Origin: Streptobacillus ratti
GTDB lineage: Bacteria > Fusobacteriota > Fusobacteriia > Fusobacteriales > Leptotrichiaceae
Direction of reading: 5' to 3'
Length of the DNA stretch: 39,229 nt
NCBI RefSeq assembly: GCF_001891165.1
Contig: NZ_LKKW01000010.1
Location: 1-39,229 of the forward strand
Shown: piece after piece, positions 37,529 to 37,666 of the stretch
How the letters are laid out: each line of letters starts with the position of its first letter
Numbering within the stretch: the stretch's first letter is position 1
Position numbers and translations under genes: made by a program
The notes under the pieces: model-generated
The model's database searches: none
What the model was told of the DNA's origin: nothing
Seen by the model: the letters and a program-made list of their open reading frames with translations, nothing else

Positions 37529-37557
37529 TTGATTTTTATTAATTTTAGGTGTATACT
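37529..37557 (+). promoter_or_regulatory. Promoter of a candidate small RNA
   Basis: TTGATT (37529-37534), a 17-base spacer and TATACT (37552-37557) on the plus strand. No credible reading frame follows; the transcript would start near 37564 and meet a strong terminator about 100 bases later. Confidence 0.55.
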
Positions 37558-37563
37558 CAAACT

Positions 37564-37666
37564 ATATTATCATATACATATATATGATGTTAAACCAATT
37601 TTATGTAATAACAAAATACAATTTTATCTCACAAATAGATTATTCTTCGGAATAATCTATTTTTAT
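37564..37666 (+). ncRNA. Candidate small RNA of about 103 nt
   Basis: This lies in the 569-bp gap (37379-37947) between paralogue C and gap. From the 5' end: a hairpin ATCATATA/TATATGAT (37569-37576, 37581-37588), about 44 unpaired AT-rich bases (37589-37632), then a perfect 13-bp terminator stem (37633-37645, 37650-37662) closed by a TTCG tetraloop and followed by a T run. Its own promoter is at 37529-37557. gap has separate promoters nearly 200 bases downstream, so this is unlikely to be the gap leader. Prediction is from sequence only; no known family is recognised. Confidence 0.5.
37633..37665 (+). terminator. UUCG-loop terminator of the candidate small RNA
   Basis: Perfect 13-bp stem AAATAGATTATTC/GAATAATCTATTT with loop TTCG, followed by T residues to 37664. 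A textbook intrinsic terminator that no annotated coding gene accounts for. Confidence 0.8.

Follow-up and report, generated by a model that had tools for sequence, protein, structure and literature searches.

A probable short noncoding transcription unit, restricted to one lineage, upstream of gap in Streptobacillus ratti

A stretch at 37529-37671 on the plus strand, located between a minus-strand array of small surface-protein genes (35297-37378) and the gap gene of Streptobacillus ratti, is probably a real, short, evolutionarily young and self-contained noncoding transcription unit of about 100 nt, with a promoter of the housekeeping-sigma type and found only in this Streptobacillus lineage. 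The window analysed is the whole of contig NZ_LKKW01000010.1 (G000:C10; 39,229 nt), part of a 1.43-Mb genome. An earlier note on this DNA had described the element as a trans-acting small RNA (sRNA) that might regulate envelope genes. A promoter and a terminator beyond chance expectation, the lack of a translatable open reading frame (ORF), absence from sister species and a separate promoter for gap point to a transcription unit, and the regulatory role found no support. Three other Streptobacillus species (G001, G002 and G003; one genome per species) were compared, and the census, controls and screen covered own-genome stretches amounting to 1.08 of 1.43 Mb.

The candidate promoter

By simple consensus, the candidate promoter matches 9 of 12 positions, and 26 such sites were found versus 18 expected. 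A promoter matrix was trained on the regions upstream of this genome's genes, the candidate being left out of training. With this matrix, the candidate (13.4) scored above the gap promoter (12.6) and below the divergent outer-membrane protein (OMP) promoter (17.3), an order that was unchanged in four retrainings on half of the data without the window. Per kb and strand, intergenic DNA contained 0.95 sites scoring at least as high as the candidate, coding sequence 0.028 and dinucleotide-shuffled DNA 0.046. Indeed, such sites are about 20-fold rarer in shuffled sequence than in real intergenic DNA. The promoter claimed in the earlier note is thus present, and as a candidate it is of the housekeeping type, with a score within the range of real promoters.

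The terminator

The arms of the terminator hairpin (37633-37645 and 37650-37662) are 100% complementary over 13 bp and enclose a UUCG loop, giving a folding energy of -12.8 kcal/mol and a z score of -6.6. The reverse strand folds equally well, but there the hairpin is followed by GTGAGATAAA instead of T; the T-rich tail is found on the plus strand only, so the predicted signal is directed toward gap. A survey of hairpins resembling terminators, counting those that lie outside genes with an energy of -8 kcal/mol or lower, yielded 139, all in tandem or convergent regions except for six at stretch ends and one, the candidate's, in a divergent region. It is the sole terminator among 53 divergent intergenic regions. 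When the 569-bp region was shuffled preserving dinucleotides, a terminator-like site at or below -8 kcal/mol appeared in 8 of 1000 shuffles, and none reached -11.9. The earlier claim of a 13-bp terminator with a UUCG loop was therefore confirmed, whereas the proposed extent held in part: a size of about 100 nt agrees with the present analysis, but the unit ends near 37671 and not at 37666.

A short transcription unit

The two signals were also found to co-occur in a blind screen, which retained promoters scoring at least 11 with a terminator within 300 nt and no gene between. Only four places were recovered, and among them the candidate has the most stable terminator. Of the other three, one is unexplained, and two are a single tRNA gene and a cold-shock-protein (csp) gene that falls below the ORF cut-off. 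The recovery of real short transcription units by this screen is the best argument that the candidate is one of them. The unexplained match, L090:15119-15215, is about 60-100 nt long and lies among phage-like genes, with no gene or Rfam match.

The sequence also has three of the attributes expected of a stand-alone bacterial small RNA gene, namely an own promoter, as judged by its sequence score, an intrinsic terminator 50-400 nt downstream and no ORF bearing a Shine-Dalgarno site. The predicted transcript folds with a z score of -3.98, to which the terminator contributes most. RNA polymerase would start at TTGATT-17-TATACT, with the RNA beginning near 37563, and transcription would stop at the hairpin and its T tract, ahead of the gap promoter, leaving the unit uncoupled from gap. 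The earlier proposal of a noncoding unit of about 100 nt bounded by these two elements is in agreement with both parts exceeding their controls in the sequence statistics.

No plausible protein had been seen by the earlier note either, and no translatable ORF was found between promoter and terminator. Open frames do exist, one of 23 aa from 37584 and one of 79 aa from 37526, as a small-protein gene would demand. Nevertheless, both lack a Shine-Dalgarno site, while genes here have strong ones (AGGAGG before gap); moreover, the shorter frame stops within the terminator stem and the longer one begins upstream of the promoter, making a small-protein gene extremely unlikely. No Rfam family was matched at the gathering threshold in the window, or at E <= 5 in 37380-37950, and membership of a known RNA family was rejected. 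The coordinates of the features are collected in Table 1.

Table 1. Features of the candidate unit and its surroundings (positions in the window)
Feature	Position	Strand	Remarks
Candidate RNA promoter, TTGATT-17-TATACT	37529..37557	+	TTGATT 37529-37534, TATACT 37552-37557
Predicted noncoding transcript	37563..37671	+	About 100-109 nt; start deduced from the -10 box
Weak 5' hairpin	37565..37592	+	Almost only A-U pairs; -6.3 kcal/mol; not beyond chance
Unpaired centre, 40 nt	37593..37632	+	Minimum-energy structure
Intrinsic terminator	37633..37671	+	Stem of 13 bp with UUCG loop and T-rich tail; the only one in 53 divergent regions; none of 1000 shuffles as stable
Divergent surface-protein (OMP) promoter, TTGACA-17-TATAAT	37406..37434	-	12/12 consensus; shares 26 of 31 positions with the G001 promoter in the corresponding location
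gap promoter, TTGCAT-17-TATAAT	37883..37911	+	Conserved in all the Streptobacillus species compared (four)
gap, type I glyceraldehyde-3-phosphate dehydrogenase, neighbour gene	37948..38955	+	
Segment found only in this genome	37439..37870		Approximate boundaries; would be 37439-37811 were the second promoter-like copy ancestral
Possible decayed promoter, TTGATA-17-TATAGG	37810..37838	-	Ancestral place of the envelope promoter
Possible decayed secreted-protein gene start	37740..37790	-	AAGGAT, ATGAAAAAA, frameshifted hydrophobic stretch

Evidence weighing against the unit

Several observations weigh against a transcription unit. The genome is AT-rich and contains many loose promoter matches by simple consensus, a setting that would favour a chance arrangement that is not transcribed. 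However, promoter and terminator each far surpass shuffled sequence and are found in combination, and two of the three other matches of the blind screen are real genes, so that a chance arrangement is unlikely. The terminator stem has just two G-C pairs and its T tract is interrupted (UUUUUAUAUUUU); given these features, termination at the hairpin may be incomplete. The 5' hairpin announced by the earlier note is present, but an equal or better one was found in 43 of 1000 local shuffles and in 792 of 10290 intergenic 37-mers; not being beyond chance, it should not serve as evidence. The central region is unpaired as claimed, although it spans 40 nt instead of 44. To these points must be added the null result of target prediction over 745 ribosome sites and a lack of conservation, the unit and the whole surrounding segment being missing in the three sister species, each represented by one genome.

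Relationship with gap

The same strand is shared by the candidate and gap, which begins 277 bp downstream of the terminator, and the candidate could accordingly be viewed as a 5' leader or attenuator of gap, with transcripts starting at 37563. This alternative, which the earlier note had named as the outcome that would overturn its proposal, is scarcely credible. The gene has its own promoter, near-identical in all three congeners together with its leader of about 30 nt, and conserved in four species, which argues that the candidate is not the gap leader. Moreover, sister species have no such leader, and the terminator between would block read-through. The reading as gap leader was therefore rejected, as far as sequence allows.

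Trans-acting role and envelope link

The idea of a trans-acting sRNA repressing envelope genes draws on the order of the parts, on the adjoining surface-protein genes and on the existence of such sRNAs in the phylum (PMC11005410). FoxI and FoxJ are sigma-E-dependent envelope sRNAs of Fusobacterium nucleatum with a cytosine-stretch seed, and FoxJ, of about 156 nt, was at first interpreted as the leader of the following gene (PMC11005410). Like them, the candidate is short, noncoding and fusobacterial, with its own promoter, a Rho-independent terminator and envelope genes nearby. The divergent surface-protein promoter lies 95 bp away, measured between the two -35 boxes, as the earlier note had reported.

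Nevertheless, the comparison fails in other respects. The candidate lacks a cytosine-stretch seed, its centre containing no run of more than two C, and it differs from FoxJ in its length of about 100 nt. It also has a promoter that appears to be of the housekeeping type, no conservation across species and no predicted envelope target. The open centre was paired with 745 ribosome sites, covering about 75% of the genome, following a check proposed in the earlier note, and the result was null: shuffled versions of the centre equalled or outperformed it in 28 of 40 cases for the best site and in 32 of 40 for the top twenty. Complementarity beyond chance, expected of a trans-acting sRNA, was thus not detected. 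Among the 745 sites, the neighbouring envelope genes ranked 359, 375, 533 and 725, and gap ranked 180. Furthermore, synteny with the envelope genes is kept in sister species that lack the RNA. A repressor of the FoxI/FoxJ type is therefore very unlikely; the envelope link is one of neighbourhood alone, and envelope regulation, as suggested by the earlier note, is unsupported.

No short extracytoplasmic function (ECF) sigma factor was found above the family cut-off in this genome. In the search of the sigma-70/ECF family, only two proteins, of 383 and 288 aa, lay above the cut-off in each Streptobacillus genome; hence the genus may lack a counterpart of the F. nucleatum sigma-E.

With regard to stand-alone trans-acting sRNAs in general, the candidate resembles them in size and in the order of promoter, open seed region and terminator, and departs from them in the lack of Hfq in the genus, of a target signal and of conservation. 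Hfq was found in none of 20 genomes from Streptobacillus and related taxa, although the control search detected it in E. coli and others; KhpA is present. Any role of the RNA would most likely involve base pairing through the open A/U-rich centre without Hfq. There is a small but appreciable chance that the candidate is a functional small RNA gene, recently born from a decayed surface-protein gene, working free of Hfq (perhaps with a KH-domain protein of the KhpA type) and with targets that the pairing screen missed.

Origin of the segment

The candidate is part of a segment of about 375-430 bp that is absent from G001, G002 and G003. In these species the divergent arrangement of gap and envelope genes is retained, with the envelope promoter and the genes or their remains, and the interval is short. 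Since G003 is the outgroup by gap DNA (92% versus 97%) and lacks the segment, the most parsimonious explanation is that the window's lineage acquired it. When 40 genomes, the own genome and relatives, were searched at the DNA level, nothing but background matches appeared outside the window. Conservation of the stems in related genomes, put forward by the earlier note as a check, accordingly supported neither stem, the whole segment being absent from the three congeners.

Possible traces of older sequence were found within the segment. The stretch at 37812-37842 is identical at 22 of 31 positions to the envelope promoters of G001 and G002, with 1-2 of 200 shuffles as good, and is located at about the ancestral distance from gap; a direct repeat links it to part of the active promoter at a distance of 419 bp. 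The possible gene start in Table 1 is matched best, in sister genomes, by the beginnings of genes encoding signal peptides (MKKYILILFIY...). This suggests that the surface-protein array once had a first gene, now decayed, beside the candidate, although alignments of the whole segment to the array genes stayed within the range of shuffles.

These traces are consistent with a neutral origin, in which promoter and terminator were left by gene decay and recombination in the array and the RNA is perhaps idle, the terminator at most shielding the gap promoter from read-through. Restriction of the segment to one lineage, the adjoining promoter copy and frameshifted gene start, an array whose gene content differs in all four species and the lack of any target signal all favour such an origin. 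On the other hand, the flawless pairing of the 13-bp stem and the quality of the promoter, amid otherwise degenerate sequence, suggest recent origin or upkeep. A neutral relic is plausible and comes a close second to the transcription unit favoured here, with which it overlaps, since the unit could be transcribed and yet idle; our confidence in one does not exclude the other.

Three other origins were considered and rejected. An intact OMP gene hidden in the segment was discarded, as DNA alignments of the whole segment to array and OMP genes were not beyond those of shuffles. A superoxide-dismutase relic was suggested by a 31-nt match of 91% to a sod gene on contig C31; with a peptide similarity of 8 residues and similar E-values in every relative, this match was attributed to chance. 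As for a mobile element, the segment has no other copies in the genome, no terminal inverted repeats and no phage match; plasmids contained no match to the segment as a whole, viral contigs no exact match to the stem or the centre, and genome contigs no exact match to the stem.

No small-RNA work on Streptobacillus was found in a literature search. If transcribed, the candidate would be a small RNA gene in this genus and an instance of an RNA gene arising, in a narrow lineage, amid what is left of a protein gene, offering a bounded event in which to study the origin of new small RNAs in bacteria without Hfq. If it is a relic only, it would be an ordinary by-product of turnover in the surface-protein array.

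Neighbouring features

The surface-protein array on the minus strand (L034, L035 and L036) lies between whiA and gap, and its gene content differs in the four species: G001 has a lipoprotein only, G002 a broken OMP, and G003 an OMP, a lipoprotein and another OMP. Judged from these contents, the array is a hot spot of gain and loss. At 37124-37378 (-), it encodes an 84-aa protein that comprises only a signal peptide and the final strands of the OMP family. The protein resembles a family member shortened internally, with the terminal GYTF motif retained; no relatives of this protein were found among genome contigs.

Further away, a type III restriction-modification pair, res (ResIII) and mod (N6_N4_Mtase), is located at 18593-22986 (-), and a search of mod revealed no simple repeat tract. 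On the other side of gap, the contig ends at 39072-39229 (+) in a repeated ORF start, of which one copy lies within a 375-aa frame and others also at contig ends. This is probably a transposase, presumably IS30-like, that breaks the assembly next to gap.
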